Below are positions 1-24,624 of a stretch of 64,000 nt of DNA, piece after piece (the stretch's first letter is position 1; each line of letters starts with the position of its first letter). The position numbers and the translations under genes are program-made. The notes under the pieces were generated by a model. That model was not told the DNA's origin. It was given only the letters and a program-made list of their open reading frames with translations, and did no database searches. Source of the stretch: an uncultured Clostridia bacterium (lineage in GTDB: Bacteria > Bacillota > Clostridia > UBA1381); the NCBI GenBank assembly GCA_947591315.1, contig CANQDD010000042.1, positions 1 to 64,000 on the forward strand, given 5' to 3'.

Positions 1-3000
1 TGTAACCGTAATCTGCGGAGCTGTGCTGCTGAGTACCTTACTCGTATTCGGCGGCAATATCCATGTCGCGTCATAGTTGTCCTTCGCGGCACCGGTAAGC
101 TCCGAAGCGGTTGTCTTAATCGTTGCCTTGTTCGGATTGAAGGTTACATCCGAATACTCGATAGACCAATCAACGCCTACGCTGTCATCTGTCAGGAACT
201 GCTTAATCGAAGCACCTGCCGTCACATTCGCGCCGGCATATACATCATATTCCGTCGCGTCAAGCTTACGCGTGGGACTGGCGGCGTTCCATGTGAAGGG
301 TGCAAGCGTATCCTCCGTTACCGCAAGTGTTATAGGCTTCTTTGTAATGTCCGCCTGCGTTACGCCGCTGACGTCTATATCCGTTTCAGCCGAAGCGGGC
401 AGCTTGTAAATCTTAGCGTTATCGTCTGTAAGCGTTACGCCGAGACCTGCAAGGTCTACCGTAATCGTCTTTGTATCGTCTTCAGACGAGCCTACGTATG
501 ACGCGTTCGGATTTGAGGCAGTTGCGCCGTACTTTATCGTACCCGCCGTTACCAAAGCGTCAACATTGTCAAGCGTTACAACTGCGTCGGTCGCGCCTGC
601 CGGTTTAAGCACAGCCGTAATAGCGTACGTGTTGCTTGCATCATCGGCAATCTTCACGAGCTTATCGGTCTTATCGTATACCTTCGTTGCCGTACCCGAT
701 ACGAACAGCTTAAGCTGTAATCTGCTGACGGTAATATTAACTTCAGCATGCTTTGTAGGATCCGACTTCGATTTTACGGACAGATGGAACGTCTTATCCT
801 CGCCGTCATTGCCGGTCGCGCCGTTCTTCGGCTCGGTAAGCGACAGCTCATCATTCTGCGCCGCCTCATTTGCGGGATCCTCAGCTATGTCCGTTCCCGC
901 ACTCCAGTACAGCTCGAACGGAAGTTCATCGTCTGTAACCGTTGTGCCGTCGTCCTTCTTCCAGCTTCCGTCTTCATACTTGTATGTTTCCGTTGTGTTA
1001 TCACCCTTTGTAACCGTTACGGTCATACCCGTAAGGTCAAGGTGATCGCCGTGATTGTACTCGCTCTTTGAAGGCTTTGTTGCCGTAATATCCTTCGCTG
1101 CCGCAAGCGGCGTTACATTACCGTTCGTAATGCTGTTACTGTCAAATGTCGGAGTGTAGTTTGCCACAACATATTCAGCATTTTCGGCATGAGCGGGTTT
1201 AAGCGAGCCGGCTGTAAACGTTATCGGAGCCTGGGCAGCGCTGTTCTTATCAATACTTGCAATATCGAATATAATCGACCAGTCAACCTCTACCTCGTCC
1301 TGACCATCATAAGGCATTATGCCCTGTATAGCTGCACCTACATTTCCTCCCGGACCTTCTACCGTGATATTGTCGGGTTTAATCAGCTTCTTTGTATACT
1401 TTGTGCCTCCCGGTACATCGGGCGTATCCGTATTGAGGTCAAGCCTCGGCAGATCGTTCTGTGACTTCGCGGTAATTACCAGCGGACGCGGTACAATTTC
1501 ACCGCTCGCGTTGTTGATGATAAAGCTTCCGCTGCTCGGCATCTTGTACGAGTCAGCCGTTCCGCCCTTTACGCATGTTATATAAGATCTGAGCTGACTA
1601 AGCGTAACATCTATATTCTTTTCGCCTGCGTATGAATCCGGCTTACTGTCCTTACTCTTCAAAGAGAACGCTTGGGCATTTGCAATAGCGCCGGCCTTAT
1701 CAAACGTAACATCAAGCGTAGTCGGGAGCGCTCCTTGTGTAACTCCGTCAACAACCGTTACGGTAAGCTTGTCACCTTCTACGCGCTCACTGCCGACAAC
1801 ATAGGAATTTGGAGTGAGCGAGGTGGAGCCGTTATACATCTTCGTAAGCGTACCATCTATCTTCAGCGCAATCTGTCTCTTTGCGACAGTTATCGCATCC
1901 GATTCCGCGGCTGCCGCGTAATCGGTGCTTTCCGGAGTTTCGGGAATGGTCGGCGTAACCTTTATCTTGGTTGACCTCGGATCACCGTTTCCGGTATAAC
2001 CCATATCGGTCGCACTGTAAATCATTGCGGCGTTTTCTGAATTATACTTTGTCTCTACCGCTCTATTGCCGTTCCATGTAAGCGTTACATCCTGAATACT
2101 GCCCACATTTTCCGCTTCTCCGAGCGCACTGCCGCTTGATTCATATCTCTGCAGCTTCCACGGCAGGGTGGAGTTGTTATCACCGTCATAGGTATATACA
2201 TTGTACGAGCTGTCGCTGTACGTCACTTTAACTACCATGCCGCTAAGGTCAAGTATGTCGCCGTGCGTGTATTCCCTATCGGTCGGCTGCGCTGTTATCT
2301 CAACCTTTGATATACCCTTGTCGTTAACCATGCCGTTCACCTTGGCGGGTGACGAAGTGATATTGTAGTTCAGTTCGGGATAACCCGCCTGTGTACCGCT
2401 CATTGATATTTCGGTCTCCTGACCTCCAACCGCGTTTTGGTCGCTGTATTTAGCGGTAAGCTTAATATTGCTAAGGGTATCGCCGTCAACCTTGCCGCTA
2501 ACGGTATAGTTGGACTCGGTCAAATCTACCGTTTTTTCACCGCCGGCGCTGTTCTTCGCTATCGACGGAACGCTTGTTACCGTAATGCTGAGCGGCTTTG
2601 CCGATATGGTACCCTTGAGTTGGTTTTTCTCATCAAGCACGTCTTTGCTGACTGTCGGATGATACCTGTCAAAGTCAGAATCTACCGCATTAAGGTTCCA
2701 TGTATCCGCATTGGCAAGCTGATAATTGCCGCTGCCCGCGCCTGTCAGATGCAGGTTGGAGAGCTGGATTGTCTTTGGAACTACATTACCGCTACCATCA
2801 CGTTTTACATCCTTGCCTTCCATGTTGCAGGCTACCCATGCGCCGCCATCCGACAACTTATAAGAAGCGTTGTCTCCGCCGAGATACTCAGCTCTCAACT
2901 GATTATACGTCGCAGCCGTACCCTCCGCGGGAACATCTATCTTAATGTTCTCCTCCGGGAAGGGGTTAGTGTACTTCTCGAAATCAGCATTTGTTTCCGC

Positions 3001-6000
3001 GTCGTTACCGTTGCCTGTGCCTGTATAGTCATAGAACTCAAATTCAAGACCGGACGGGTTGGCAAGGTTATTGCCGTCGTATTGCTTATTGATTTCAATA
3101 TCTGAACCGGATCTCTGCTTTCTTACAAACGCGTAAATCGGGCGTCTAAGGATTGTCACCGCACCCGTGTTTGCGGTCGCGTAACCGCCTCTGCCGTTAT
3201 GCAGCGGCACTGATATAACAATGGTCTTGCCGTTGTTTGCGTAGTTGGCGTAATCGGTGCCGTTGGGGTTAATTATAGTTCTGGTACCCTCCCAGCTCAG
3301 CGTTACACCGTACGTATCACTGAGCGCGCTCGCGTCAATGTTTACGAAGTCGTGATCATTCGCGTCCTTCTTCTGCCACTGACCGTCTACGTTTTGGAAT
3401 GTTACCGTATAGTTAACCGTGCTGTGATACTCTACCGTGAACTTAAGTCCGCCGAGATTGAGCTTGTCGCCGTGCGTTGACCTGGCGGGCGAAGCCGTCG
3501 AGTCTGTTATTTGAATGGCGGCAGGTACTATAATACCGCGCGGCACAGGCCACGTGAAGTTATAGTTTGCCGTAAACAGCTCATCGCTGCCGCTTTCGTT
3601 TGTTACCACAGGATAAGCGCTGTCCTTAAACGTCAGATTCTCCGGAGTGTCCAGATTCTCGGTCTTTGTAAGCACAGTAACGGGGAACGTCGCTGTCCAT
3701 GACGCTCTGAACGCTCTCTTATCCGCCTCGGGCATCTTCGCAGCGCTTCCGTCCGTATCATTGAGAACAACGGTCGTCCTATCTTCCGTACCGATTATCT
3801 GACCTGACGTCGAAACATCTACCGTTTCCGTCGCGTCGGAATTTTGCGCGGCTCTCAGCAGCGGCAGTGACTTTATCGAAATATCCAGCTTTGTAACCTT
3901 GCCCGTAAGCGCTGTTGCCGGAGCCTGCCACTCAACCTCGTAACCAGCCGCGCCGTCGCCTTGAAGCGTGAACGAGCTGTTGCTTGCCGTAATGCTTATC
4001 GGCTTATTTTCACCCGCGTATGACGGATTCACACCCGTGAATACAGCGCTTGCCGTATTCGTGAGATTGAGCGTAATACCTGCGGGCGCGTCCACAAGCT
4101 TGTACGTCACGAACATGCTCGCGTCAGCCGTACCGTCGTACTCTCTCGACGCTGTTTCACTTTGTTCAGCCGTTACTGTAAGCTTCTTCGGATTTACAGT
4201 GATTTCAGATGTCGCGTTAGATGTGGTAATAGTGTCGGTTATCTTTACCTTAAATTTCTTTCCGCTGTCGGCTGTCGTTAACGGTGTACCCTGCGCGGGA
4301 GCATCCGCTACGCCGTCTTCAAGAACAATCTTAAAGCTCGACAGCCAGTTTTTGCCATACGTGTAATCTATCGAAACGTTACCCGCAGTATCGGTATATA
4401 CAACACGTACTGTCAGTCCCTTATAGTCGATACCATCGCCGGACGAATACGTTTTCTTCATTATATTATCCGGCTGCTTGGGATCTTCCAGAATTGTCGC
4501 GCTTACGACTGATCTGTTCTTTATCGTAACCGACGCGTCACCCTTTGTAAACGTATAGTTCGTAAGCGGGAAGTTCGTATCATCTGTCGTCTTGATTTCC
4601 CACTCGTACCGATCATCGCCGTCAGAAACAGTGTTACTCTTATACGCATTGTCGCCCGAAGCATTGGCGGCGGAAATTGTATACGTGCTCGCGGCGTTAT
4701 GCTTTGACGCCGACAGTTTTATTGTATACGTAAATGTATACCTGCTCTGCTCGCCGTCTACAAAGGTTTCCGCGTTATATGGCGCTTCGCTTATGCTTAT
4801 ATTGGTGTTATCCAGATAATAATTCTGCTCCAATTTCGGCGTAAGCGTTACCGGCTTCGGTGTGATCTTACCCTTAACGTCCTTAAGCTCAAGCTCGTAC
4901 TGGTCTGTCGGTATATCGGCATTAGCTGTAAAGCTTACGTCAGCGGTAATGTCATACGAAGTGTCGCCTACGCACGCGTTCTTAACCGAATTTTCTCCCT
5001 GTTTGTACAACGCGCCGTCGGCAGCGGTTACGGTAAACACTGTTCCGTAATCGCCGGCAACAAGGGCTTTATCCACTTCCGCGAGACCGTAGCCGTCGCC
5101 TACCTGTTCAACTTCCGGAGCTACCGTAAGACCTGTTACGGTTGCCGCGGGCGTTCCGTCGTACTCCTTATTTATGGAAGCTGCCGCCTTAACAATCAGC
5201 TTACGCTTGCTAACCGTAAGGTCAACCGTGTTCGATGCTTGAGTTCCGTCCTTGTCTTTAACCTGAACGGTCGCCGTACCCGCCTTAAGCACGGTGTTGT
5301 CACGGTCTGTCACAGGTGTGGTGTTGTTTGTAACAACAAGCTCTAAATTGTAGTTATCAAACTTCGGATCAACCGCGCCGCTGGCACTATCATAATACTT
5401 GAACGTGTCGTTACCGTTTACCGTGATTTCGAGGTCGTCAAGCTCAGCGTCTGTCAGCTTATCGCCGTAGTAATACGCTGTCTGTGTCTTTGTTATCGCG
5501 ATACTTGTTATCGCGGCTCTCGTTACCGTACCGGGCAGCGTGGTTACCGCGTCGTAATCAAGCACGAAGTTATTTGTCGCGGCGCTGAATTCCATACTGA
5601 AGCTGTCCCCGTTTGAACCCGACTTCGCAATGTTCACCGCGCCTGTTCTGGTTGACGCGAGATTACCGTAATCATACGTTATAGTAATCTCGGGCGCTTC
5701 TACACCCGGGGGCCATGTGCCCTCTGTAACCGTGTCACCGTCGTAAATGTACTTATCGGGTGCCGATGTGCGTGAGCCCGACGCCGTGACAGTACCGTTT
5801 GTCGTTGCCGCCTTAAACTCTACCGGCTCAGCCTTTACCTCCGCGCCGAGACTGCTTACAACAACCTTACGCGGCTTGATTGTACCCGTTACGCCTGCGG
5901 GCGGAACCAATATATAGTTACCCGCGTCATCGCCGCCTGCTGTCAGATCGAACGTAATGTTCTGCGCTGTCGGTGCCGCCGCCGAACCCGCAACGTCCGC

Positions 6001-9000
6001 GCTTGCATACTGCGCGGTACCCGTAACGGTTACAACGTCCTTACGGCTCTCCTTTGTAAAGGTTACAAGGTCAGTATCTGTCGGCGTAAGCGTAAAGCCG
6101 GTTACAGTCTTTGTGCCGTCGTAGTACTTATCATACGTGGTTTCGTTAGCAGTTACATGAAGATCTGCCTGCTTAACTACAACCTTATTGGCCGATGTTT
6201 GCGCGGGTTGACCTGTTACCTCCAAGATGATGTCCTTACCATTCATATTGGTATAGTGCGCCTGAAGATTCTCAAGGTCGGCCTTTGTTGTAATCGGAAT
6301 ATTTCCTATATGAACCGCAATTCCATCAGGCAGTGTAACCTCACTGCTACCATCCCTCGTCCAATACTGCGCACCCGCTTCACCGGCAATCTTATACTCT
6401 AATTCTCCGTAAGCTTTTGATGTTACGTTAATTGTCAAGCCTGTAAGGTCAAGCTTATCACCATGCTTGTGCGGATTAACCTCCGACGTAATCTTGTTGC
6501 CCGCATCGGTCGGAGGCGAAACCTCTTCGTACGTATCAGCCGCTACATTACCGAGCAGGTAATCCGACCGGTTTGCGCCGGGTTGTGCTTCTTGCAGAGT
6601 TTTCCAGTCTGTGCTGCCTGAAGCTTCTTCACTCTTTCTTGATTTAGCTTCTACATCCGTCCACTGAATCTCATAGTTGCTAAGTTTTACATTATGCTCC
6701 GCAGCATCTGCCGTTTCTTCACATTTATTCCCTGACATTGTGACAAATACAGGATTTTCCGCACCCGATGTACCTCTCGCGTCACCGTCTCTGTACGTTA
6801 TCGTATAAGAGAATGTAAAGTACGCGTCTTCACCTGTCACAAAGTTATTCGCACGAACCTGTTTGCTCGTAAGAGCGCCGCCGGATGTAGTTACTGCCTT
6901 CGCATCCGTAACATTAACAGTTGGCTGCGGTTCGGCAGAATTTGCGGTAATGCCCGGAACATACACGTCTGTAACTTTAACCGTTCTCTTTGTAATCTTA
7001 CCCGTAAGATCTTCAATATTTACCACATCCGCAAACTCATAGTTGGGATCGGAAGTGTCCTCTCCGTTGGTGAGCGTGAATTTTATTGCAATATTGTCAT
7101 TAACATCCTTGCTCTCATACTGCGCCTTTGCGGTAGGCGTAAGCGTCGGCTCTGTACCCTCTATAGTCTCGCCTTCGGCTATAGCATATGTGATGTCCTG
7201 ACTAACATCCGTATTGCCGTCGTATTCCTTTTCAATACCAGTACCTGATGCCGTTACCTTTGAAATCTTCTTCTTATTTACCGTTACCTTGCCGCCGCCC
7301 GCAGAGGGTGCGTTGCCGTCGGGGTTTGCTGTTTTCAGCGTCGCGGTAAGCGTCGCGCCGTTATACTTCTCGGGCGGGAGCTTCATACCGGGCGTAACGT
7401 TCGTATCCGCACCGCCCTTCGTGTCGCTCCACTGCAGCGTAAACGGCGGATCAGGCACTACATCACCGCTGGCATTGTCCTTATGCCACTCTATAACACC
7501 GCCATTGTTAACCGCGTAATACGTGGTTGTATCGTCAGTGGCGTTGGGATCGGTATTCTTAACCGTAACCGTCAGACCGTCCACAACAAGACCGCCTTCG
7601 TCGAACGTGTAGCCGCTGTCAAACTGTGTCGGGTTTGTAACCTCGACGCTATAGCTTGCCGCGTTAACCGTACCCGTACCCGTTACGGAGTTTGCGGTTA
7701 CAGTGTAGTTCAGCGCTGTATCGTTCGTCGCCTGAACATCCGAAATGGTTACGGGAGCCTGATCCTTCTCCGACTTTACTTTCGGCGTGTTATAGCTATA
7801 ATCAACCGTAAAGCTAAGCGTTTCGCTCTCTACCGCGCCGTCCACTACGGCATAAGGCTTGTCGGCGTCTGCCGCAGTCGTTACCGCAAGATCGTTACCG
7901 GTATAATTACTTGTGCCCTGTACTATCGGTGTTACGTTATGCACCTGTTGTACCGTTACCGAACGCTTTGTAATCGTCGCGGAAGCGGAAGCGCTCTTAT
8001 TTTTAAGCGCATATTTATCTGGATTGCCTGCTGTATCAGAAAGTTTGATATTCGTTATGTTGACTTTTTGCGCGCCGCCTATACTGTCGGTCGCGTTTTT
8101 ACTGTTATACGTAATATCATTATCAGCTGCCGTCGCGCTTACAGTACCGGGAAGCGAGTACGATCCATCAGTATACTTTGTCTTTTCGGGAGTAAGCGTA
8201 TACGTAATCGCGCCGTCAGTAGTCGAAGTATACTTCACCGTGCCGTCGTACTGCTTTGTAATCGTACTTGCCGGCGCAGCCGTTACATTCACCTGACGCG
8301 CGTATACGACAAGAAATTCGCTTGTGTCTGTTACCGTCGGTTGACCTTTGACTGTTACCGTCAATCCGCCGCCTGTGTCACCGGATTCGTCCACATAGTC
8401 TATTATGTCGCCTTGCTTGTGAGGCGTGGGTGCTCCGCCCTCGGCATGACCGCAGGACAGCGTAAACGGAACAGCAGATGCTTCAACCATGTTAGCTTTT
8501 CCTGAACCGATTTGCTCCATCCAATGGGCAATAGCTCCGTCCGTAAACGCGTCTGTATCGCTCTCCGGCAGAGTGTACTTAGCATCTATGCCGCTGGCAT
8601 AGTGAATTGTTACCTCTATACCGCGATAGTTAAACTTATCGCCGTACTGCACAGCATTGCGAGTTTGACTGTCGGTAAACATCGTCGGCGCTTTAATATC
8701 TATGCCCTGTGCCTGTGCCGCTGTTATCGCACCCTCTCTTGTGAGAGTTTCCAGACTTTCATTCGGATCCGGATCAAACTTATAGTTGTTATTAAGCAGC
8801 GTTATCTCCGAAATTTTAAGTCCGTTCGCCAATGTCGCCGGGTTTGCTGCCTCGTCAGTATTTTCGTAATGATACTTAAAGCTGATAGTCGCGGCTTCAG
8901 CCACCAGAACGCCCGTACCGGTACCCTGTGCATCGTCTCCGGTTGCGGCGGCAAACTCAGCCGTTGACGTATATGTTGCGTCGGTCGCTCCGCTTGTCGC

Positions 9001-11475
9001 TTTGCCCTCTGCTTCTATGTGATTTGTAAACTGCGCTACAGCCGGAATCTTCTTAATAGCTGTAAGCGTTATCGGACGCGGCTTTATATTACCCTTAGAC
9101 ACACCCGTCAATTCGCTAATCTCGTAGCTCTTTGCGCGCTCATCCGCGTCAACGCCACTAAGACCGCCGATAGTCCAATCACTTTCCTCTATATGGTTGC
9201 CGAAGCTGCCTCCGAAATGTAAGTCTATATTGTCACCGGCATTCGCATCAGTATATGTGACTTTATGATCCGCACCGCCGTTAAATGTAACTGTCAGATC
9301 TTCGTCGCCTGTGGCAACGTCCTGCGGTGCAAATGTCCAATGCGCGGCATCCAAAGCCGGCTTAAGATCTATAGTATAATCGTAGTTCTTTTCCGGCACA
9401 TGCGTTGTGTCTCCTTGATATTGAACATCTACCGATATTTTCTTCTGGCTTACAGAAACCTGTTTGCTGCCTGTTTTTACGCCTATTGTTGCTTGAAGTG
9501 TACGTCCACTCTTGGGATACGTCCATGTTATGCCTTTCTGCAAGTCGGTTAAGCTTGTTATTACGCCGAGCGTATCAGCATCATACGTGTCGCCGGCGCC
9601 GCCGAAGACCCAAGTGAGTGTAAACGGCTTCTTATCATAATCGGCGTATATATCGCCGGTTGTTACATCGGGATCGGTAATTGTCCAGTGACTGTGGGTA
9701 GAATCCCACACATACTTAACCGTGCCGTCCGCGTAAACTACATCAATCGTCAATCCGTTATATCCCGCTGTGTCGCCACTCTGATTGAATTTGTAGTTAG
9801 CGTCACCGTACGTTATCTGACCCATGCCGCTGCTTACGTTAGGATTCAGCGCGGGCGGCAATGTCAGATTGATGTTACTGATTTCCACATCTTTAACCGT
9901 ACCGCGGCCTTGAACACTGGCAGCATCTGATGCGTCAAGGTTGGTAAATGTATAGTTTTTATTTTGTGTGTTAGTGGTTGCATCGGCAAGCTTGATTGAT
10001 TTAAGCGTTACCTCCGCCGCGTTGTTTTCGGTTGACACTGACGTATTATCGTATTCATACGTAATATCGAACAGTACGCCGTCCGTTCCCGCAATCGCAT
10101 GGTCAGGGTTAAGCTTAGCAACCGCCTTGTAGTCGGCGCTTGTATCAGCCGCATCCGCTACAACAGCCTTACCCACGCGCACACCGGCAGCACCTACTCT
10201 TACGGGCTTGATGTAGTCAATCTGATCTACCGTAATAGCAAGTTTGCTGATTTCTGCTGCTGTGATATGCGAAACGGTCTGGCTGACGGTGTATTCGGCA
10301 TTACTAAAGCTGCCGTCCGTTGCTTTTGCAACATCTTCATATTGCGTAGCGCCGCCGTAGGTTGCGCTGTATGCGTCTTTCTGCGCGAATTGAACCGTTA
10401 CGCCCGACACGCTAAGACCTGCGCTGCTAACAGTCTCATTATACTTGGTCTGATGGTCGCCGTCCATGCCGGTCGTATCGACAGCATAGGTGTATGAGAA
10501 TGCGGACGTTACCGTATCGCCTTCACCTTGATTAAACGAATCATCACCGTCATACGGCTTGCTAATCTTTTCCGCGTTTACCGTAACAGTAACCGGAATC
10601 GGATTTACCTTGATTTGCACGCTGCCGGTTTTAACGGCGCCTTCGGTTGCGTCGTCTTTGAGCGTTACAACAATATATTTGTTATTGTTCGCCGTAACGG
10701 TAACGCCTTCGTTTGTATCAACGTCCGTTGTACCCGCAGTTGCCGAATCGCCCCATTGTACCGACTGAATCTTGCTGCCTTCAGCCTTCGCAGCGGCGAT
10801 ATTGGCGTATTCTTCCGGATCTCCCGAGCTATACACAATCGTAATCTTCGCGTCAGGATGATCGGTCGAGTAGTAGGTATTAGTACCTTCCCCAACAGTG
10901 TTGAGCGGTTCTACATCAATACGGCTTACCGTTCTCTTTTTGCGCTCACCTGTGGCTTTGCCGTCAACAATAATAGTATAGTTGTCAGCCACTACATCTT
11001 CTATCGTTACTTGTGTGCCTCCGACATCATCGTATTTATAGCTGTATGTAACATGTATACCTGTTTCCCTATCAGCTTCAACCAGATCGTTGCTGTTTTT
11101 AAGGAACTCGTCCATAGATGCGCCCGAGTGCTTATCAACATCGTCATATTCTGCTTGCGGCACTGTAAAATTACTGCCGTTTACATGGATTTCCTTCTTA
11201 TTTATCTTACCCTGTTTATTATCTGCTGTGATATTGTAGTTTGCAATATCAGGGTGACCGTCGTTATCAGGAGTAACGTTAAATTGAATAGTCTTGTTAT
11301 CTGTCGACGCACCTGCACCGCCTTGATACGTACCCGCGACTGTGAAGCAATCCGTAGGACTGTTAAACGAAGTACCGAGCGCATCTCGATCCTCCGTTAT
11401 CGGAGCATCAACCGCTGTCCATGTAAGCACATCCTTTACATCTGCTGTGCCGTCATAGTCCTTATCAAGCTCTGA
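1..11475 (-). repeat. Tandem YDG + Ig-like super-repeat array within gene D
   Basis: Reading the minus frame gives eleven YDG-type motifs at about 672, 1834, 3077, 4138, 5160, 6120, 7222, 8248, 9418 (degenerate, YQGDTTHV), 10550 and 11455. Spacing is about 0.9-1.24 kb, roughly 300-410 residues. Many units also contain a GD-x-LDL-x-GL-type segment typical of bacterial Ig-like group 3 domains, for example near 1040, 2260, 3450, 6450 and 8620, usually followed by a strand ending in K-R-x-(I/L/V)-x-(I/V). Copies are diverged at DNA level, so this is an old domain array rather than a recent tandem duplication. The array continues past the left edge, so total copy number is unknown. Confidence 0.75.
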
Positions 11476-14400
11476 ATTGGTAACAGTAAGCTTAACCTTC
11501 TTCTGCGTAACGGTGAGCGTTGCGGTCTTATAATTTGTGCCGTTCGTACCGAATGCCACAGTGTCGCCGTTGCAAAGCAAAGCGGTCAAATCCGTATCGG
11601 TTGACTTCTTATTAAAGCGTACAATCTTATTGCCTGCAACGTACTTAGTAATAAATTCATCAAGTGTTATTGCTGATGACACTTTAGGCTGTGAGCCCGA
11701 GCTTGTGACATTAACCATAATATTTGTCGGCGTTGTCTTATCCCAGCTTCCGCCGTCATTGGTAGCGGTATATGTATACTCGGATCCGTCGTCTAATGTA
11801 AATTTAACCGTACCGAGCGCGTCACCGTGCTCTTTGTCTGACGGCAGAGTCACACTCTGAACTTCAGGCGCACCTATTACTTTAAATTTACGCACCGGAA
11901 TAGTATAATCCCATTCGTCATTTGTGCTATCGAGTATATCATTAAACTTAAATGTAACGGTATAGTCACCCGGCGCCAAAGCGTCCAAAATCTCAGGCGT
12001 AATGGTGATTGTATCACCGACTACACTAATAGTACCCTGTACTTCGCCTCTTTCGTTGGTCACCTGTGCGCTTTCAAGCGTATAGTCAGACGTCGTGGTA
12101 TGCTTATAGACAAAGTTGTCCCTACCCATGCCGACTTGGTGCGTTGCTCCTTCGTCTTTTGTGCCTGCATCCCATTCGGGCTTAACTTTATCCGCAAATG
12201 TAATCGTAATCTCTTGCCCGTCTGTTATGTCGTCGTTAGTTAATGTCCTTGATACGGTCTTGCTGTTGGTCGACGATTCACCTGTAAACGAGATAATTTT
12301 CTTTTCCTTTGTCGCAGTCGCGGTAATGGTTATATCGCCGTGACTGGGCAATACATGATATGTACCGTCTCCGTCCTTGGTAATGCTGTTGTTTTGTGAC
12401 TGAACGGTAACATTGCTGTCGTCGCCGCCTGTCTGCGTTACCTTGAGCTTCTTAAAATTCAACTCCAGATTCGCGGTGAGAGTAAATTCGCTCTCAGGAG
12501 CGGTAAAGGTATAAGTGCGCGCACCTGACGACTGTCCGCCGTCCTCGGCATCGGAAAGTGTAGTAGTCGCCGACCATGCCGGATTACCAAACTTGTGATC
12601 AGTATCGGGCGTAACGGTTACAACGTACTTCTTATCAGGGTAAATCTTATATTTACCACTTTCCTCACTGACAAGACTGCCGCCCTGTTCCTGCACACTC
12701 GTTACTGTGTCGCCATTCGCTACTACCGTCATTTCTATCGGTCCCTCAAAGGTTGCGCCGACGGTGTAGGAGGTGCTTTCGGCGGGGGTGAACCTAGCGG
12801 GGTTGGTGGTCTTACCGCCGCTGGTTTGATAAACCGTGTCCGTCGTTGTATCCGACCACTCCTTGAACTTGTAAGTGCCGGATTCATTCGCTTGAACAGT
12901 TACCTCGCCCGTCTTTTTGAGCGCAAGAGTAGCGCCGCCGGACTGTTCGCTATAGTTCAAATCATCATTGTCCGTCTGCGTAACCGTAATCGTTCCGTTA
13001 GTCGTCTTCTCTACCGTCAAATACGGGGTGGTGTTTTTGAGCGTGATATTCTTTGTAATGTCAGAGCCGGAATATTGAATATCAATAGCGGCTGTAACTT
13101 GCTGTCCGGTGGCGTTCGGTGCTGTCGGTTCACTACCGCTATACAGCAGCTGCTTGACAAGATCCTTCGCCTTAGCCTCAGTTATTGTAATAGTGTTACT
13201 ACCGGTAAAGTGATAGTCCGTATCGCTCGTTAACTCTTGTCCACCGATAGTAAGCTTGTCTACGGTGCCGATGAGATCCGGTGTCAGCGTTAGTGTCAGA
13301 TCCTTGCCTTCGTAGTAGTCGTATACTACATCCTCAACACGCGGCGCACTAAGCATCGTGACATCAAACTGCACATAGGTGTCGCCGCTATCGACATCGG
13401 TCACTGTCTGTGATTCTGTAAATGTATCTACATTACTTCTCGAATCGCCCTTAGCCGACAAATTAACCGTTAATGTATCGGCAAATTTATAATTATCGTC
13501 CTCCGGATTTAACTTAAACTGTACCTTATATGTCGAACCGTAGTTAAAATGATTAGCATCGCCGACAGAGCCGCCGCCCTGTGCGAGCCAATCGTCCACA
13601 GTAGCATCAACTCCGGCTGTAGTAGTCGATCCGTCCTTGCCTTGCACCGGCGTGTCGCCTACGGTCGGCATGGTAAGTTCAAGGTTGATTTCGCTGATCG
13701 TGGTTACAGTTTTAACGGTAAATGTGATCCACGTTTTATCGATCGCCATGGAATTCGCTGTAAGATCCGCGTCAACCTTGACATGTACCGATGATCCGGT
13801 CGATTTTATTTCCGACACCTGACCTGCTGCAACTGTACAATCTGTTCCATCAACTTTAAGCCAATCGGGATTGTTAGTCGGATTATATGTTTTAAGTTCA
13901 CCATCCGACAGTGTAACTTCCATACTTCCTTTCGTGAGGTCGTATGTATTGGCTTCCTGCGTTATATTTTCATCCTCATTTGGATTACGAAGCGTCAGAC
14001 TGCTTACCTTTATAGCGGGATAATGTATTGTAATTGTTCCCTTTGTATCGTCAGTCTTGCTGAACTCAACCGTCGGCGTATAGCCGCTGCTGCCGTAATC
14101 ATCACCAAAGCTCGCCGGTTTAGCCGTTACGGTATCACCAAATTTATCACTAGCGTCAGACAAAGTAACGGGAAACGAAACGGTGTAGCCGTCACCCCCG
14201 AGCGCCACTTTGGGAGCAGTCGAGGTTCCGTCGGGAGTATATGTAATGTCACCGTTAATAGACACATTTGCACCGTCATTTGCCGTTATGTCACTGTTTT
14301 GCGGCGCAGTGAGCTCTTTGTCAAACTCTATTTTCGGAATGTCAACAGTAAGTTCCGTAACCGTCTTGCCTGACGGAGGAGATACTTCCTCGCCCGGAAT

Positions 14401-15138
14401 GGTAACAGACGAAGCAGTAGAGTCAAATGTCGTCTGGTAGACGAACATTGCATCAAGACTGTTGGTGACGTTATAGTTTGAAGTAGCAATAAATATAGCT
14501 ATCGGGATATCTTTTGTAACGTCACTTAAACTACTACCATCCTCAGCCGCTGTTTCAAATGCGGTTCTTATGCTATCCGCAGTTAAAGTTACATTTTCTT
14601 CCGGTCCCGGAATAACAGAATATTGTAAAAGATTGGTAACCTCTCCTTGGTTTGCATGATTTGTCTGTCCATCTACATGTGCATAAAAGAATGGAAACAT
14701 TAAGCTTAAATTTTCTGTAGCGGATGCACCACTCTGTATATTTGTTACAAGAGTTTCCATATCTGTGTCAGCAAATAATCCATTTGTCCAATCACTGTAT
14801 GTAGGAAAATACTCCGCCTGTGCTCCGGTAACTGTATAGTTGCCGATAGGCAAGATAAGTGCATATAGTTGACCATTACTATTATGCCTACTTCCTGCTG
14901 GAATAGATACATCAAATTTAGTAAGTTGACCATTTTCAAATTTAATTTCTATTTTGTCAACTATTTTATTTGACGAATCACCTGTGTATGTTTTTGTTGC
15001 GTCATCATACGTTGTACCGCCTTTTGGAATGGTGGGAGTGTCAGCAGCCGATGCAGTCAGACCCCCCCCTATTGAGTTAGGAATTATTGAAAAAATCATA
15101 GAAAGCGCGAGTAATGCGCTAAGTATTCGTTTTTTCAT
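1..15138 (-). CDS. Gene D: giant secreted YDG/Ig-like repeat protein, 3' end outside window
   Basis: An uninterrupted frame runs from the ATG at 15138 to the left edge, 5,046 codons with no stop. The ORF track omits it, apparently because it lacks a stop in the window. The start is supported by an AAAGGAG ribosome binding site and a typical signal peptide (MKKRILSALLALSMIFSII, cleavage near ASA-A at residues 31-32). Residues about 33-480 are an unrecognised beta-rich region. Residues about 480-690 hold Ig-like modules beginning ISEINLELTMP. Residues about 705-960 resemble divergent InlB B-repeats (YKFKEWSDTT, then ARFTPAESTSYTV). From about residue 1,225 to the edge there is a long array alternating YDG motifs (KEYDGT, KQYDGN, REYDGT) with Big_3-type Ig modules (HGDKLDLTGL). 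No catalytic domain or membrane anchor is visible; an anchor could lie beyond the edge. Surface adhesin or fibre is an inference. The first 700 bases look AT-richer than the rest. Confidence 0.9.
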   Translation of the reverse strand, partial: MKKRILSALLALSMIFSIIPNSIGGGLTASAADTPTIPKGGTTYDDATKTYTGDSSNKIVDKIEIKFENGQLTKFDVSIPAGSRHNSNGQLYALILPIGNYTVTGAQAEYFPTYSDWTNGLFADTDMETLVTNIQSGASATENLSLMFPFFYAHVDGQTNHANQGEVTNLLQYSVIPGPEENVTLTADSIRTAFETAAEDGSSLSDVTKDIPIAIFIATSNYNVTNSLDAMFVYQTTFDSTASSVTIPGEEVSPPSGKTVTELTVDIPKIEFDKELTAPQNSDITANDGANVSINGDITYTPDGTSTAPKVALGGDGYTVSFPVTLSDASDKFGDTVTAKPASFGDDYGSSGYTPTVEFSKTDDTKGTITIHYPAIKVSSLTLRNPNEDENITQEANTYDLTKGSMEVTLSDGELKTYNPTNNPDWLKVDGTDCTVAAGQVSEIKSTGSSVHVKVDADLTANSMAIDKTWITFTVKTVTTISEINLELTMPTVGDTPVQGKDGSTTTAGVDATVDDWLAQGGGSVGDANHFNYGSTYKVQFKLNPEDDNYKFADTLTVNLSAKGDSRSNVDTFTESQTVTDVDSGDTYVQFDVTMLSAPRVEDVVYDYYEGKDLTLTLTPDLIGTVDKLTIGGQELTSDTDYHFTGSNTITITEAKAKDLVKQLLYSGSEPTAPNATGQQVTAAIDIQYSGSDITKNITLKNTTPYLTVEKTTNGTITVTQTDNDDLNYSEQSGGATLALKKTGEVTVQANESGTYKFKEWSDTTTDTVYQTSGGKTTNPARFTPAESTSYTVGATFEGPIEMTVVANGDTVTSVQEQGGSLVSEESGKYKIYPDKKYVVTVTPDTDHKFGNPAWSATTTLSDAEDGGQSSGARTYTFTAPESEFTLTANLELNFKKLKVTQTGGDDSNVTVQSQNNSITKDGDGTYHVLPSHGDITITATATKEKKIISFTGESSTNSKTVSRTLTNDDITDGQEITITFADKVKPEWDAGTKDEGATHQVGMGRDNFVYKHTTTSDYTLESAQVTNERGEVQGTISVVGDTITITPEILDALAPGDYTVTFKFNDILDSTNDEWDYTIPVRKFKVIGAPEVQSVTLPSDKEHGDALGTVKFTLDDGSEYTYTATNDGGSWDKTTPTNIMVNVTSSGSQPKVSSAITLDEFITKYVAGNKIVRFNKKSTDTDLTALLCNGDTVAFGTNGTNYKTATLTVTQKKVKLTVTNSELDKDYDGTADVKDVLTWTAVDAPITEDRDALGTSFNSPTDCFTVAGTYQGGAGASTDNKTIQFNVTPDNDGHPDIANYNITADNKQGKINKKEIHVNGSNFTVPQAEYDDVDKHSGASMDEFLKNSNDLVEADRETGIHVTYSYKYDDVGGTQVTIEDVVADNYTIIVDGKATGERKKRTVSRIDVEPLNTVGEGTNTYYSTDHPDAKITIVYSSGDPEEYANIAAAKAEGSKIQSVQWGDSATAGTTDVDTNEGVTVTANNNKYIVVTLKDDATEGAVKTGSVQIKVNPIPVTVTVNAEKISKPYDGDDSFNQGEGDTVTSAFSYTYAVDTTGMDGDHQTKYNETVSSAGLSVSGVTVQFAQKDAYSATYGGATQYEDVAKATDGSFSNAEYTVSQTVSHITAAEISKLAITVDQIDYIKPVRVGAAGVRVGKAVVADAADTSADYKAVAKLNPDHAIAGTDGVLFDITYEYDNTSVSTENNAAEVTLKSIKLADATTNTQNKNYTFTNLDASDAASVQGRGTVKDVEISNINLTLPPALNPNVSSGMGQITYGDANYKFNQSGDTAGYNGLTIDVVYADGTVKYVWDSTHSHWTITDPDVTTGDIYADYDKKPFTLTWVFGGAGDTYDADTLGVITSLTDLQKGITWTYPKSGRTLQATIGVKTGSKQVSVSQKKISVDVQYQGDTTHVPEKNYDYTIDLKPALDAAHWTFAPQDVATGDEDLTVTFNGGADHKVTYTDANAGDNIDLHFGGSFGNHIEESDWTIGGLSGVDADERAKSYEISELTGVSKGNIKPRPITLTAIKKIPAVAQFTNHIEAEGKATSGATDATYTSTAEFAAATGDDAQGTGTGVLVAEAATISFKYHYENTDEAANPATLANGLKISEITLLNNNYKFDPDPNESLETLTREGAITAAQAQGIDIKAPTMFTDSQTRNAVQYGDKFNYRGIEVTIHYASGIDAKYTLPESDTDAFTDGAIAHWMEQIGSGKANMVEASAVPFTLSCGHAEGGAPTPHKQGDIIDYVDESGDTGGGLTVTVKGQPTVTDTSEFLVVYARQVNVTAAPASTITKQYDGTVKYTSTTDGAITYTLTPEKTKYTDGSYSLPGTVSATAADNDITYNSKNATDSIGGAQKVNITNIKLSDTAGNPDKYALKNKSASASATITKRSVTVQQVHNVTPIVQGTSNYTGNDLAVTTAADADKPYAVVDGAVESETLSFTVDYSYNTPKVKSEKDQAPVTISDVQATNDTALNYTVTANSVTGTGTVNAASYSVEVTNPTQFDSGYTFDEGGLVVDGLTVTVKNTDPNATDDTTTYYAVNNGGVIEWHKDNASGDVVPDPPFTLQWSDTKGGADTNVTPGMKLPPEKYNGATLTATLKTANPDGNAPSAGGGKVTVNKKKISKVTASGTGIEKEYDGNTDVSQDITYAIAEGETIEGTEPTLTPTAKAQYESKDVNDNIAIKFTLTNGEDTSDPNYEFADVVNIEDLTGKITKRTVKVTDVYVPGITANSAEPQPTVNVTDAKAVTTSGGALTSKQVRANNFVTGEDAYFTFSYTITYRDGDARGTSGAENPVFVTMSGNKCEETADAAEHNVKLSNYEIQWTDVEAKSRKSEEASGSTDWKTLQEAQPGANRSDYLLGNVAADTYEEVSPPTDAGNKITSEVNPHKHGDKLDLTGLTINVTSKAYGELEYKIAGEAGAQYWTRDGSSEVTLPDGIAVHIGNIPITTKADLENLQAHYTNMNGKDIILEVTGQPAQTSANKVVVKQADLHVTANETTYDKYYDGTKTVTGFTLTPTDTDLVTFTKESRKDVVTVTGTAQYASADVAGSAAAPTAQNITFDLTAGGDDAGNYILVPPAGVTGTIKPRKVVVSSLGAEVKAEPVEFKAATTNGTVTASGSRTSAPDKYIYDGDTVTEGTWPPGVEAPEITITYDYGNLASTRTGAVNIAKSGSNGDSFSMEFSAATNNFVLDYDAVTTLPGTVTRAAITSIAITKTQTAYYYGDKLTDAELDDLEITVNGNDTFKYYDSASGAVDPKFDNYNLELVVTNNTTPVTDRDNTVLKAGTATVQVKDKDGTQASNTVDLTVSKRKLIVKAAASINKEYDGTPAATVTGLTVAPEVEQVGDGYGLAEVDKALVAGDYGTVFTVTAADGALYKQGENSVKNACVGDTSYDITADVSFTANADIPTDQYELELKDVKGKITPKPVTLTPKLEQNYYLDNTNISISEAPYNAETFVDGEQSRYTFTYTIKLSASKHNAASTYTISAANASGDNAYKSNTVSDGDDRYEWEIKTTDDTNFPLTNYTFTKGDASVTIKNRSVVSATILEDPKQPDNIMKKTYSSGDGIDYKGLTVRVVYTDTAGNVSIDYTYGKNWLSSFKIVLEDGVADAPAQGTPLTTADSGKKFKVKITDTITTSNATSEITVNPKKLTVTAEQSETASREYDGTADASMFVTYKLVDAPAGITLNLTNTASAVFTGVNPSYAGENKPISITASNSSFTLQGDGAAGYEVEWQAPATALTGKVTKLDISIKSLPLLRAAQNSDATETVDVSTSGQIIGTEDRTTVVLNDTDGSAAKMPEADKRAFRASWTATFPVTVLTKTENLDTPENLTFKDSAYPVVTNESGSDELFTANYNFTWPVPRGIIVPAAIQITDSTASPARSTHGDKLNLGGLKFTVEYHSTVNYTVTFQNVDGQWQKKDANDHDFVNIDASALSDTYGVTLSWEGTRTIINPNGTDYANYANNGKTIVISVPLHNGRGGYATANTGAVTILRRPIYAFVRKQRSGSDIEINKQYDGNNLANPSGLEFEFYDYTGTGNGNDAETNADFEKYTNPFPEENIKIDVPAEGTAATYNQLRAEYLGGDNASYKLSDGGAWVACNMEGKDVKRDGSGNVVPKTIQLSNLHLTGAGSGNYQLANADTWNLNAVDSDFDRYHPTVSKDVLDEKNQLKGTISAKPLSITVTSVPSIAKNSAGGEKTVDLTESNYTVSGKVDGDTLSNIKLTAKYSDQNAVGGQETEISMSGTQAGYPELNYNITSSPAKVNGMVNDKGISKVEITAQPTDREYTHGDILDLSGMVVKVTYSDSSYNVYTYDGDNNSTLPWKLQRYESSGSALGEAENVGSIQDVTLTWNGNRAVETKYNSENAAMIYSATDMGYTGNGDPRSTKIKVTPTIPETPESTDYAAAAESDAITVAKRQIALKIDGTLTKMYNGSTSLTPNSYVVGSERVEGDKLTVTVVDGVTQGALPTTLDVTFDKAGAIANAQAFSLKSKDSKPDSYAGEKNIDVTLSQLRSYITCVKGGTADSYKMPSSGSFIINNASGEIVPRPLVITAKSQNDLPRLDLNTDTPDVPGGTKYTKKLIKPDNITVEGPGGNVGAAIQGIMPYDGQDEVEVDWSIIFDIASIDKNSAAQAPITFTAGSLKPAHAENAEYVVANYTPTFDSNSITNGNVTPLAAAKDITATKPSKSEYNHGDHLDLTGMTVTVTKGDNTTETYKYEDGSWKKDDGTTVTDDELPFELYWSAGTDIAEDPANEAAQNDELSLTEPKNGATGNDGEDKTFHLSVKSKSDPTKHAEVNITVSRLQLKLFVSGTATKVYDKTDKLVKIADDASNTYAITAVLKPAGATDAVVTLDNVDALVTAGTIKYGATASNPNASYVGSSEDDTKTITVDLAGLGVTLTDDNAKIYKLPASAETDIDVSGVTQADITKKPITLAVTEDTLAPFTWNAASPTRKLDATEYDVYAGANVTAGASIKQFLTDDSVGVDWSIEYSDVTFNPNKATIKTTASELTGAAKDNYDATWILPPNTSKVLSSTAPQITVT
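15062..15069 (-). repeat. G8 homopolymer in the signal-peptide region of gene D
   Basis: Eight consecutive C on the plus strand read ATA GGG GGG GGT (I-G-G-G, residues 23-26) in gene D, just after the hydrophobic core of the signal peptide. The frame is open as given. A one-base slip would frameshift the protein before the mature region begins. This makes it a candidate phase-variation tract, or a candidate sequencing-error site. Which of these applies cannot be decided from one sequence. Confidence 0.6.
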
Positions 15139-15146
15139 TGATTTAA

Positions 15147-15153
15147 CTCCTTT
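15147..15153 (-). promoter_or_regulatory. Ribosome binding site of gene D
   Basis: AAAGGAG lies eight bases upstream of the ATG at 15138, with an A/T-rich spacer (TTAAATCA). It fixes the start of the otherwise unlisted gene D. A TTGACA-like hexamer occurs further upstream, but no TATAAT-like partner is seen at the right distance, so no promoter is called. Confidence 0.8.
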
Positions 15154-15222
15154 CAAGTTAAATTTTTTTGTATGTCAAAGGCGTTTCCGCGCCTGTTGTT
15201 GTGGTTGTTTGTTGGACCCTAC

Positions 15223-15401
15223 GTGAGGCCCCCTTGTCAAAGGGGGCTGTCAGCGGAGCTGACTGGGGGATTCCTTTTTGATTTCCACATTGAATCCCTC
15301 CACCGCCTTCGGCGGTCCCTTTTGTTACGGCATACGAGCAAAGCTCTATGCCTACAACGCTAAAGCGTTGTTCACCTCCCTTTAACAAGGGAGGCTTGCG
15401 G
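15223..15401. repeat. Hairpin repeat copy A1
   Basis: Begins GTGAGGCCCCCTTGTCAAAG and ends AACAAGGGAGGCTTGCGG. It matches A2 over about 178 bases, apart from a TTTCCAC versus TTTTTCAC difference. It contains at least five short palindromes, including GCATACGAGCAAAGCTCTATGC and ACGCTAAAGCGT. Confidence 0.85.
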
Positions 15402-15415
15402 TGTGTGTCCTCTAC

Positions 15416-15532
15416 GTGAGGCTCCCCTTGAGGGGAGCTGGCGCCGTAGGCGTCTGAGAGGTGGTGTCTCTTAATTGCCACCTCTCCGTCATTGCTTCGC
15501 AATGCCACCTCTCCTCAAGGAGAGGCTTGCGG
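15416..15532. repeat. Hairpin repeat element B
   Basis: Begins GTGAGGCTCCCCTTGAGGGG and ends CTCAAGGAGAGGCTTGCGG. It has the same overall design as A (a G/C hairpin at each end, internal stem-loops) but different internal sequence, with GAGAGGTGG paired against CCACCTCTC and a central ATTGCTTCGCAAT palindrome. It appears to be a second family of the same element class. Confidence 0.7.
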
Positions 15533-15537
15533 TGTGT

Positions 15538-15558
15538 GACCCCCTCATAGAGGGGGTC
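15538..15558. other. Perfect 9-bp stem-loop between repeats B and A2
   Basis: GACCCCCTC-ATA-GAGGGGGTC is a perfect inverted repeat with a three-base loop. No T-tract follows on either strand, so it is not called a terminator. Confidence 0.6.
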
Positions 15559-15592
15559 TTGCGGGACGTCGAGGCGCCGTCCCCTACGGTAT

Positions 15593-15772
15593 GTGAGGCC
15601 CCCTTGTCAAAGGGGGCTGTCAGCGGAGCTGACTGGGGGATTCCTTTTTGATTTTTCACATTGAATCCCTCCACCGCCTTCGGCGGTCCCTTTTGTTACG
15701 GCATACGAGCAAAGCTCTATGCCTACAACGCTAAAGCGTTGTTCACCTCCCTTTAACAAGGGAGGCTTGCGG
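15593..15772. repeat. Hairpin repeat copy A2
   Basis: Near-identical copy of A1. It is preceded by the linker GGGACGTCGAGGCGCCGTCC, which is also present before A3. A2 and A3 therefore sit in a direct repeat with a 208-bp period. Confidence 0.85.
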
Positions 15773-15800
15773 GACGTCGAGGCGCCGTCCCCTACGGTAT

Positions 15801-15918
15801 GTGAGGCTCCCTTGTCAAAGGGGGCTGTCAGCGGAGCTGACTGGGGGATTCCTTTTTGATTTCCACATTGAATCCCTCCACCGCCTTCGGCGGTCCCCCT
15901 CCCTTTAACAAGGGAGGC
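15801..15918. repeat. Hairpin repeat copy A3, internally deleted
   Basis: Matches A1/A2 at both ends but lacks the internal segment of nearly 60 bases that runs from TTTGTTACGGCATACGAGC to GCGTTGTTCA. CGGCGGTCCC therefore joins almost directly to CCTCCCTTTAACAAGGG. The first hairpin also carries a CC to TC change (GAGGCTCCCTTG). Confidence 0.8.
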
Positions 15919-15963
15919 ATATTATCACCCCCAAATACAGGGTGGTGTTAAAAACGCACGACA

Positions 15964-15989
15964 GGCACACGCGTACAAACGCGTCTGCC
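15964..15989 (-). terminator. Possible terminator hairpin downstream of gene C
   Basis: On the minus strand GGCAGACGCG-TTTGTA-CGCGTGTGCC forms a ten-pair stem with one mismatch, 22 bases after the stop of gene C. A TTTTT run follows, but only about nine bases beyond the stem, so the match to a classical intrinsic terminator is imperfect. Confidence 0.4.
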
Positions 15990-16010
15990 CTTCGTTCAAA
16001 ATCTATTAAA

Positions 16011-18416
16011 TTATAGCGAATCCGCATTTGCTTTCAATGCCGGATATTGTTCACACCATGTTTTTGCCGTCGCTTTATCAACATACGGATCAGTTGTGTT
16101 AATCAGCGCATACTGAATTTGATACCACGTCAAGGTCAAATAATCTTGTCCCGCTTCTTCAGCTTTTTTTACAAGTTCAATCAGCGGTGTTTGAGCTTTT
16201 TTGACAGTTAAGTTTGTATATGCTTTTCCTGCCGTGCTTGATGTGAGATTTAAAGCTTTCAATTTCGCTACTGTCAGCCATGTTCCCGATTTGTTGTTAT
16301 ACGCGTTTTCAAGTATTTCCTGTACGCTGATTTGAAAGCCTATTCCTTCCGGTCCTCCGACCGCGATTTGCTCAAGATCGCTTATTGCACTTCTTTGATT
16401 TCCTATAATGATATTAGCATCATAAGAATCTCTCAAAGTATAGTCAACGGTTTTAACGGCGTTTGTCGGAGTAAGGAACACACTCATTTTATCACTGTTT
16501 TCCATCATGACTCGAAGCGGCGTACTCGCCGCCGCTCCCGTTTGCACAAGTGCCATGTTGATACTTGGTTCTTTTATTCTGTATACCCCATATCCGTACT
16601 GATTTATCCGTTCATAACTAAAAGCAAAGGAATATGTCGTCACCGTAGATGTAGAAGCGCCGACCGTTCCCGTTTCAATAGGTCCTACCGCTGTATAATC
16701 GGTATCGGTTAGTGTATTGCCTGCACTTTGTCTGTTCAGCATTTCACCCGCGCTGTACGCAGCCTTTACGTATAGGTTGCCGTCACTCGCGGCGAGCTCC
16801 GCTTTTGTTATTTTTGAAAAATCACACGCTATAAGGTCGGGAATCTCTTTTCCGTCCACCGGCGCTCCTGCTGCGTCCAATTCCGGCGCAAAGCCGTATG
16901 TCTTATTTTCCGTAGGCGTTTCCGCTGTGAATGTATCCTCCATAGCCTTCGGCAAAATATCCGCGGTTTGACCGGGGTACTTGCCCGTGTCGCTGTAGTC
17001 CGGCGCGTCGGGCAGCACCTGCGTCCAGCCGTACGCGAATGTGTACGGGTGATCCGCGTCCACGAGGTTCTTGCCCGCGAAAGCGTAGTCAAGCTTATTC
17101 GTCAGTGGATATTTCGAGCCGGGCTCGTCTGAGCCGTCGCCGTACGCGCCCGTTTTCGCGAGCGGGTTGCCGCTTGCGGGGCCGTCCTCGGGGTATTCGC
17201 CGCGGTAGTTATATTTGCGCTGCTTCTTTTCCGTGTCGGACAGTGACGCGTAGCCGATTTTGCGCAGCTCGGGGTGGACAAACTTCTCCTTTGTGTAATT
17301 GTGCACCGCCTCGGTCGGATCCTCGCCGACGCCGGCTGTGAGCGTGCCGAGAAGCGAATCGTCCCAGTCGAAGAACAGGATAGTGTATATGTCGCTGAGC
17401 GACAGACCGCCCGTTTTGAGCGCGCTTTCGCCTTCGAGGGTGACAACCGTTATATCCGTGTCCTTAAGCCTGTTTTCCGGCGTTATGCTGCTGCCGACGA
17501 CGTATTTGTAGTCGTCAACGGAGCGCAGACCGCCCGCCGCCTGCGTGAACGGTTCCGTCGGGAAATTGAACATAAACGCTTTTTCCTCGTAGTTCTGCGT
17601 GTAGATAACAAACGGGTACTGCGCCGGTGATTTTGCGGCAATGTCGTCGCCCGCGAGTGTGAGTATCGTGTTCGCGCGCCAGTCGTAGTCCCAGTTTGTG
17701 GTGTGGGTGTCATTTAAGCCGTTAGTGGCGTTCGCGCCTTCGAGCCATGCTTTTGTGAGGCTTTCCTTTACGTCCGCGCCCGTTTTTGTGTCGCCGTCGG
17801 CGTTATACACAAAGCGCACCGCAACAACCGGCGCCGTGCCCGTTTCGGGCTTGGGCGTCGCGTCGGGTTCGGCTTCGGGTTCGCCGAGCTTAGGTTCGAG
17901 CGCCGCTTCGGGCGCGACCGTCGCGTCGGGGTTGGGGCCTTCCTCGGGGCGAGGGTGCTCCGCGCTGAGGTAGAGGTAGCCGTATTTTTTGCCGTCCGCG
18001 TCCGCCTGCGGCTCGGCTTCCTCGTACGCGAGAGCGGTGTGTGTTGACCACGTGTCAACGCCGAGCGTCGGGAGTGCGCGGCGTGTCGCCCATGAGTTGT
18101 TTTCGCTCATGTCGGCTTTTCCCGCGTCCTCCGCCCATGATTCGGCGGGTGTGATGTATTCGGGATCGTAACGCAGTACAACGCCTACGGAGGAGTATTT
18201 GTCGTAGTCTTCGTTTACTTCAAGACTTATCTCGAAGTAGGTGTCGTCGCCGGTAACGCGTTTCGCCACTACCGTTACCGGCTGCGTCTGATCGAATACC
18301 TTGCCGGTTTCGGCATCTTCGGCAAAGGTCGGTAAAGAGAGGCATGGCAATAACAGCGTCAGTGACGCTGTAACGGCTAACATTCTTTTAGCCATGTCCC
18401 TCATCTTGCCCCTCAT
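16011..18416 (-). CDS. Gene C: secreted multidomain protein of unknown function, 801 aa
   Basis: The ATG at 18416 overlaps the stop of gene B as ATGA, and GGAGG lies just upstream, so translation is probably coupled to B. Alternative ATG codons follow at residues 5 and 8. Residues 1-32 are a Sec signal peptide (MLAVTASLTLLLPCLSLPTFA-ED). The Cys in this segment follows LLP, a poor lipobox. Residues about 38-220 form a beta-rich domain with VGVVLRYDPEYITP, vaguely cohesin-like, interrupted by a Pro/Glu/Ala linker around residues 165-200. The remainder is unrecognised. No dockerin, anchor or catalytic motif is seen. Base composition is split: a hand count gives 39/60 G+C at 17101-17160 but 17/60 at 16381-16440. 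The C-terminal quarter may therefore have a different origin. Function unknown; partner of gene B by context. Confidence 0.9.
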   Translation of the reverse strand: MRGKMRDMAKRMLAVTASLTLLLPCLSLPTFAEDAETGKVFDQTQPVTVVAKRVTGDDTYFEISLEVNEDYDKYSSVGVVLRYDPEYITPAESWAEDAGKADMSENNSWATRRALPTLGVDTWSTHTALAYEEAEPQADADGKKYGYLYLSAEHPRPEEGPNPDATVAPEAALEPKLGEPEAEPDATPKPETGTAPVVAVRFVYNADGDTKTGADVKESLTKAWLEGANATNGLNDTHTTNWDYDWRANTILTLAGDDIAAKSPAQYPFVIYTQNYEEKAFMFNFPTEPFTQAAGGLRSVDDYKYVVGSSITPENRLKDTDITVVTLEGESALKTGGLSLSDIYTILFFDWDDSLLGTLTAGVGEDPTEAVHNYTKEKFVHPELRKIGYASLSDTEKKQRKYNYRGEYPEDGPASGNPLAKTGAYGDGSDEPGSKYPLTNKLDYAFAGKNLVDADHPYTFAYGWTQVLPDAPDYSDTGKYPGQTADILPKAMEDTFTAETPTENKTYGFAPELDAAGAPVDGKEIPDLIACDFSKITKAELAASDGNLYVKAAYSAGEMLNRQSAGNTLTDTDYTAVGPIETGTVGASTSTVTTYSFAFSYERINQYGYGVYRIKEPSINMALVQTGAAASTPLRVMMENSDKMSVFLTPTNAVKTVDYTLRDSYDANIIIGNQRSAISDLEQIAVGGPEGIGFQISVQEILENAYNNKSGTWLTVAKLKALNLTSSTAGKAYTNLTVKKAQTPLIELVKKAEEAGQDYLTLTWYQIQYALINTTDPYVDKATAKTWCEQYPALKANADSL

Positions 18417-24535: not shown

Positions 24536-24542
24536 GCTACCC

Positions 24543-24550
24543 CCTCCTTT
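24543..24550 (-). promoter_or_regulatory. Ribosome binding site of gene B, decides a GTG start
   Basis: AAAGGAGG followed by GGGTAGC and then GTG at 24535. Spacing is optimal for that GTG, whereas the upstream ATG at 24553 has no equivalent site and would place the Shine-Dalgarno inside the coding sequence. Confidence 0.75.
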
Positions 24551-24624
24551 CATTGGTAATTACTTGTAATTTTACCTTATTTTACCTTAAATTATTTGTT
24601 AAATCTGCACATTTCACCGACGTT

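Follow-up and report, generated by a model that had tools for sequence, protein, structure and literature searches.

The described arrangement nearest to the locus reported here is that of Apilactobacillus kunkeei, in which consecutive genes encode Giant1-5, elongated extracellular proteins of 3,000–8,000 aa whose N-termini are proposed to bind (PMC12863079). Giant open reading frames (ORFs) are also known from Omnitrophota, with one of 39,678 aa described (PMC10066038) and lengths of up to 85,800 aa according to a figure cited in PMC12057145; these proteins are extracellular and repetitive and carry adhesion domains, including dockerins (PMC10066038). The nearest known switches are the intragenic G tract that turns the sortase-dependent pili of Bifidobacterium breve ON and OFF, a mechanism tested experimentally (PMC9187656), and the poly-G spacer in the promoter of porA in Neisseria meningitidis (PMC3639595).

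The DNA analysed here (the window) is a stretch of 64,000 nt of an uncultured Clostridia bacterium (genome G000), corresponding to positions 1–64,000 of contig C42 (174,481 bp), so that window base 1 is also base 1 of the contig. It contains most of a conserved set of genes, A to E, of which four encode giant or large surface proteins and one a smaller protein. Like the A. kunkeei cluster, this is a row of genes for giant extracellular proteins, but the A. kunkeei proteins have beta-solenoid tips and belong to an unrelated taxon, whereas beta-sandwich modules, an SLH anchor and, in the neighbouring genes, RCC1 repeats and dockerins are found here. Gene A falls into the size class of the Omnitrophota giants; the differences lie in the Gram-positive-type gut Clostridia as hosts, SLH anchoring, the RCC1 array and a gene order conserved across species. 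Gene D, at the left end of the window, probably encodes a Sec-exported, SLH-anchored giant adhesin consisting of a variable tip, a stalk and an anchor, and switched by slippage at a run of eight G residues (G8).

An ORF listing with open ends gave a frame of 5,052 codons from a TTG (1–15156, minus strand), within which an ATG at 15138 begins the gene D frame of 5,046 codons (1–15138, minus strand), open at the contig end. The ribosome binding site AAAGGAG (15147–15153, minus strand) is located 8 nt upstream of this ATG. The gene D frame is free of stop codons, where base composition would predict about 264, and each of the remaining five frames over the same region has 72–474 stops. The gene is cut at its 3′ side because contig C42 begins at window base 1, and it is absent from the ORF track because the program drops open-ended ORFs and this frame exits the contig. 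Orthologous frames of about 4,960–5,737 codons occupy the equivalent syntenic position in genomes G008, G014 and G004, which independently proves the coding status of gene D, while the plus-strand ORFs at 7483–8505 and 10528–11475 are antisense to it and without support. All this agrees with the preliminary description, which had reported an unlisted frame of at least 5,046 codons, 15 kb without a stop, with an ATG, a good ribosome binding site and a signal peptide, and had held that no other coding reading of the left quarter of the window was coherent and that the listed plus-strand ORFs were meaningless. The 15-kb frame is thereby confirmed as a real gene of a secreted giant protein. A comparison with plasmid and viral contigs yielded no match and so gave no sign of a mobile or viral origin.

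The signal peptide comprises codons 1–31, MKKRILSALLALSMIFSIIPNSIGGGLTASA, followed by ADT (15046–15138, minus strand); its n-, h- and c-regions and the ASA cleavage site were recognised by eye, and its first 22–24 codons are nearly identical in G008 and related in G004 and G014. The N-terminal tip domain (aa 33–262, 230 residues; 14353–15042, minus strand) shows 20–31% identity between orthologues. Its structural model was poor (pLDDT 51.5), and the best PDB matches, the Fhb/SadP adhesins of S. suis with a TM score of about 0.28, were too weak, so this fold assignment was dropped. The tip is followed by a mixed region with weak CBM_X2 and InlB-type matches up to aa ~1060, and then by a stalk of about 11 tandem modules built of a Big_3-like, a YDG and a third beta domain (aa ~1060–5046; 1–11960, minus strand). 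The modules are 320–400 aa long, and their mutual identity of 20–28% indicates that they are not recent duplications. They surfaced through chunked BLAST and an iterated HMM, with Big_3-like repeats detected at aa 1786–4970, and the stalk also gave YDG and Big_3 matches; a BLAST self-comparison with the whole of D as a single query found no repeats, HMMs for the YDG and third domains did not generalise from one seed, and an NCBIfam scan of the front and stalk of D returned no informative family. AlphaFold2 modelled a stalk module with pLDDT 86.1 and pTM 0.80 from an alignment of 33 modules, and Foldseek placed the model weakly among cadherin, Ig and Rib-type chains and the grappling hook protein GhpA (5,009 residues).

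The preliminary description had proposed to look beyond the contig end for the stop codon and for a sortase motif, SLH domain or dockerin, and the existing assemblies sufficed for this. The first 800 residues of D, used as a query against the genomes of relatives, matched two members of the same genus, G004 and G008, and one genome from a different genus, G020. The orthologous frame is present in full on a 185.8-kb contig of G008, where it terminates at 130617 and genes E (3,948 aa) and F come next. The same order of E and F was found on contig C28 (20,888 bp) of the genome to which the window belongs, where the C-terminus of D lies at the open end (C28:20056–20886) as a fragment of 276 codons with 98.6% identity to the G008 protein over its final 276 residues. 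By alignment, about 380 residues (~1.2 kb) of D fall into the gap between C42 and C28, and the full-length protein is estimated at about 5,700 aa.

This C-terminus carries SLH domains (PF00395; E-value 1.4e-36 on the C28 fragment and 3.8e-35 on the G008 C-terminus), two of which pass singly, with a third copy (SREE) recognised by eye; proteins of this class usually have three, at one end. At the end of the G008 stalk, InlB-type and Big_2 domains lead through a proline-rich linker to the SLH block. SLH domains bind a polymer that is pyruvylated by the enzyme CsaB, and CsaB is encoded in the genome (C12:55676–56593; TIGR03609, 266.4 bits versus a cut-off of 213). The combination of LPXTG, hydrophobic helix and basic tail was not found at the C-termini of D proteins, which end in ...ADSGQAGTTE and the like, nor did Pfam reveal a dockerin, cohesin or catalytic domain in the scanned parts of D. 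By the features tested, D belongs with the SLH-anchored surface proteins and not with sortase-anchored or cellulosomal ones. It resembles the CsaB-dependent SLH multidomain surface proteins of Firmicutes in its C-terminal SLH domains with the motifs TRAE and GYxDGTFRP, but is much longer, has a YDG/Big_3-like stalk and adjoins a gene for a protein of 33,065 aa. A class-wide search, in which six candidates per genome were scored and G008, G004 and G043 were left out, detected the C-terminal block of D in two of 391 sampled genomes, both of this genus.

A G8 tract in codons 24–26, GGGGGGGGT, in the c-region of the signal peptide (15062–15069, minus strand; about nt 70–77 of gene D) is a candidate slippage switch. 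The G008 orthologue has G9 between the conserved first 22–24 codons and the downstream LTASA, and the two parts lie in different frames; this is the only run of at least seven G in 153 kb of the contig. The G8 tract in frame and the G9 tract out of frame are thus compared between two different species, and tract lengths taken from short-read assemblies can be wrong; at D itself, no variation in tract length within a population was seen. A frameshift had been named beforehand as a sign against the gene: the frame of D proved unbroken in the window, while the G008 orthologue is frameshifted exactly at the signal-peptide tract, which we read as a phase-variation switch, not as evidence against gene D. 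As in the B. breve pilus, the reading frame of a surface-fibre gene of a gut commensal would be set by a G tract early in its coding sequence, but the switch is here a prediction, and it is the signal-peptide c-region of an SLH protein that contains the tract.

Further tracts were found in promoters. The genome contains 13 runs of at least eight G, fewer than the base-composition estimate, so that the case rests on the position of the tracts, not on their number, and no genome-wide excess is claimed. Most runs of at least nine G lie between TTGACA and a TATAAT-like box 17–21 nt apart, shortly 5′ of ORFs with signal peptides; tracts between the −35 and −10 boxes are located at C1:122207, C2:19113, C19:43332, C23:31921, C27:28 and C33:58. 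Across the family, tracts of G7–G15 between a TTGACA-like −35 and a TATAAT-like −10 box mostly stand just 5′ of genes for secreted proteins. The pattern TTGACA-N(2–9)-G8 occurs in 10 of 70 family genomes and the reversed control pattern in none of the 70; of the 19 distinct sites, 16 stand 5′ of an ORF with a signal peptide. Other genomes with such tracts are G003, G005, G007, G008, G009, G011, G018, G037 and G060. The position of the tract between the −35 and −10 boxes is that known from porA, although porA belongs to a Gram-negative pathogen and the tracts described here to an uncultured Clostridia family with many loci per genome. These sites are probably phase-variable promoters across the family. 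In G014 the promoter of gene B has a G7 tract (C4:106391–106397) in a 17-nt spacer, TTGACA ATTAGGGGGGGTTGTAG TATATT.

Four of the 13 tracts of at least eight G are found no more than 80 bp from a contig end, where 0.04 would be expected (P ~5e-8). The end of C19 and the start of C27 are identical over the 67 nt that precede the promoter tract and the 27 nt that follow it, the sole difference being G10 versus G9. Such a pair is what an assembler leaves for a population with two tract lengths, although a poly-G sequencing error can give the same picture; it lends support to slippage in the organism, not at D itself.

One could instead suppose that the G tract is neutral, that the frameshift in G008 stems from an assembly error or marks a decaying pseudogene, and that D is constitutive. 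The D orthologues of G004 and G014, two of the four examined, have no G tract, short-read consensus sequences err at homopolymers, and trouble with G tracts is documented for Illumina data (PMC9187656). Nevertheless, we regard this explanation as possible but doubtful, since no other break occurs in the 5,737-codon G008 frame or in its neighbour of 33,033 aa, poly-G promoter loci occur widely across the family, and the assembly to which the window belongs itself contains the G9/G10 pair. Because of the G8/G9 contrast, the recurrent poly-G promoter spacers and this pair, phase variation of D by slippage appears to be the best reading, with good circumstantial support. The wider proposal of a poly-G "phasome" in gut Clostridia, in which the promoter tracts and the D tract together would lead to giants of 5,700 and 33,000 aa being shown stochastically per cell, we consider evenly balanced. 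In the literature covered, which lacks most subscription papers and all preprints, nothing closer to poly-G phase variation in Clostridia than the B. breve and porA switches was found; with this incomplete coverage, the novelty of the phasome is provisional.

The orthologues of D differ in size (5,737 codons in G008, 4,960 aa in G014, 4,558 aa in G043, and 5,506 aa in G004, where the gene is cut by a contig end), and identity varies along the protein. D and its G008 orthologue share 47% identity over 4,600 residues, with 25–30% in the first 750 residues and 36–86% in most of the stalk, besides the nearly identical anchor. A fast-changing front and a fixed anchor would fit a surface protein under recognition pressure. 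The same divergence of the front could also be an escape from phages or immunity if D were a structural component of an S-layer or cell coat, with many copies that tile the cell and form a thick brush. This alternative draws on the relatedness of the anchor to the S-layer protein Sap of Bacillus anthracis, whose SLH structure (3PYW/6BT4) was the PDB match of the SLH block of D, and on the neighbouring gene E, which also encodes an SLH protein. S-layer proteins are typically abundant and about 800–1,200 aa in size, which D far exceeds; an ordered tip and a tandem-repeat stalk suit a projecting fibre, and a possible ON/OFF switch would be unusual for an essential coat. We therefore consider a coat component unlikely and retain the adhesin interpretation.

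Genes A-B-C-D-E stand in unbroken order on one contig each in G008 and G014, both of the same genus, and parts of it (B-C-D or C-D fragments) are present in G004, G020 and G034; in G043, of another genus, C and D are preceded by several dockerin-type ORFs, identified by motifs seen by eye. Gene C (16011–18416, minus strand) encodes a secreted protein of 801 aa, present in seven of 95 genomes of the order, and its start overlaps by 4 nt the end of gene B (18413–24553, minus strand), which encodes a secreted protein of 2,046 aa with a C-terminal dockerin type I domain. The named relatives are uncultured Clostridia or Oscillospiraceae MAGs, including those labelled Lapin (rabbit) and goat duodenum. 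In G004 (C543:4724–6785), a second homologue of protein C, which is broken and has a G10 tract, was seen among phage-like ORFs, recognised by eye, and the intergenic region upstream of D (15190–16000) contains repeated palindromic elements of the CCTCCCTTGTTAAAGGGAGG type.

Gene A (24828–64000, minus strand, for the part inside the window, which encodes the last 13,050 aa; C42:24828–124025 as a whole) is a single frame of 33,065 aa (99.2 kb), with counterparts at the equivalent position in G008 (33,033 aa) and G014 (29,377 aa). Its first ~24,000 residues consist of RCC1 β-propeller repeats, beyond which come Cadherin-like domains, an acidic segment of low complexity and, by eye, a dockerin-like Ca-binding C-terminus. 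This gene, too, has an in-frame G8 tract, near codon 707 (C42:121898–121905, minus strand), a site at which its G008 counterpart shows no run of at least seven G. The N-termini of B and C looked cohesin-like by eye, but Pfam Cohesin gave no match here, B or E proteins of relatives scored below the cut-off, and this reading was dropped. A cellulosome-like surface complex, in which D and E would supply the SLH anchors, A and B would dock through their dockerins and the set would hold plant fibre or mucin, could accommodate the dockerins of B and A, the weak CBM_X2 matches in D and the above-cut-off cohesin domains that exist in the genome, but it is improbable given that the scanned parts of D contain no cohesin, dockerin or catalytic domain by Pfam and that the genome's cohesins lie away from a locus whose relatives offer only below-cut-off scores.

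Taken as a slippage-switched adhesin, D works most like a long adhesin fibre. It would be exported by the Sec system via its signal peptide, and its SLH domains would bind the pyruvylated secondary cell wall polymer, as the presence of CsaB in the genome suggests. The stalk may extend some 100 nm or more from the cell, and the tip, which diverges fast, could bind a glycan or protein presented by host mucus, plant fibre or adjacent cells. Through replication slippage, the G8 tract would turn D ON in frame, as in the genome studied here, and OFF at G9, as in G008, and D may be one among the many poly-G contingency loci that the family has for secreted proteins.

A frame left off the ORF track is now a well-supported surface protein gene whose anchor has been located, and the locus reveals a conserved cluster of giant proteins in gut Clostridia. 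If the slippage mechanism is true, a major uncultured gut lineage would display giant adhesins in an on/off manner, with consequences for phage sensitivity, host binding and the annotation of such genes, whose frameshifted copies are called pseudogenes.
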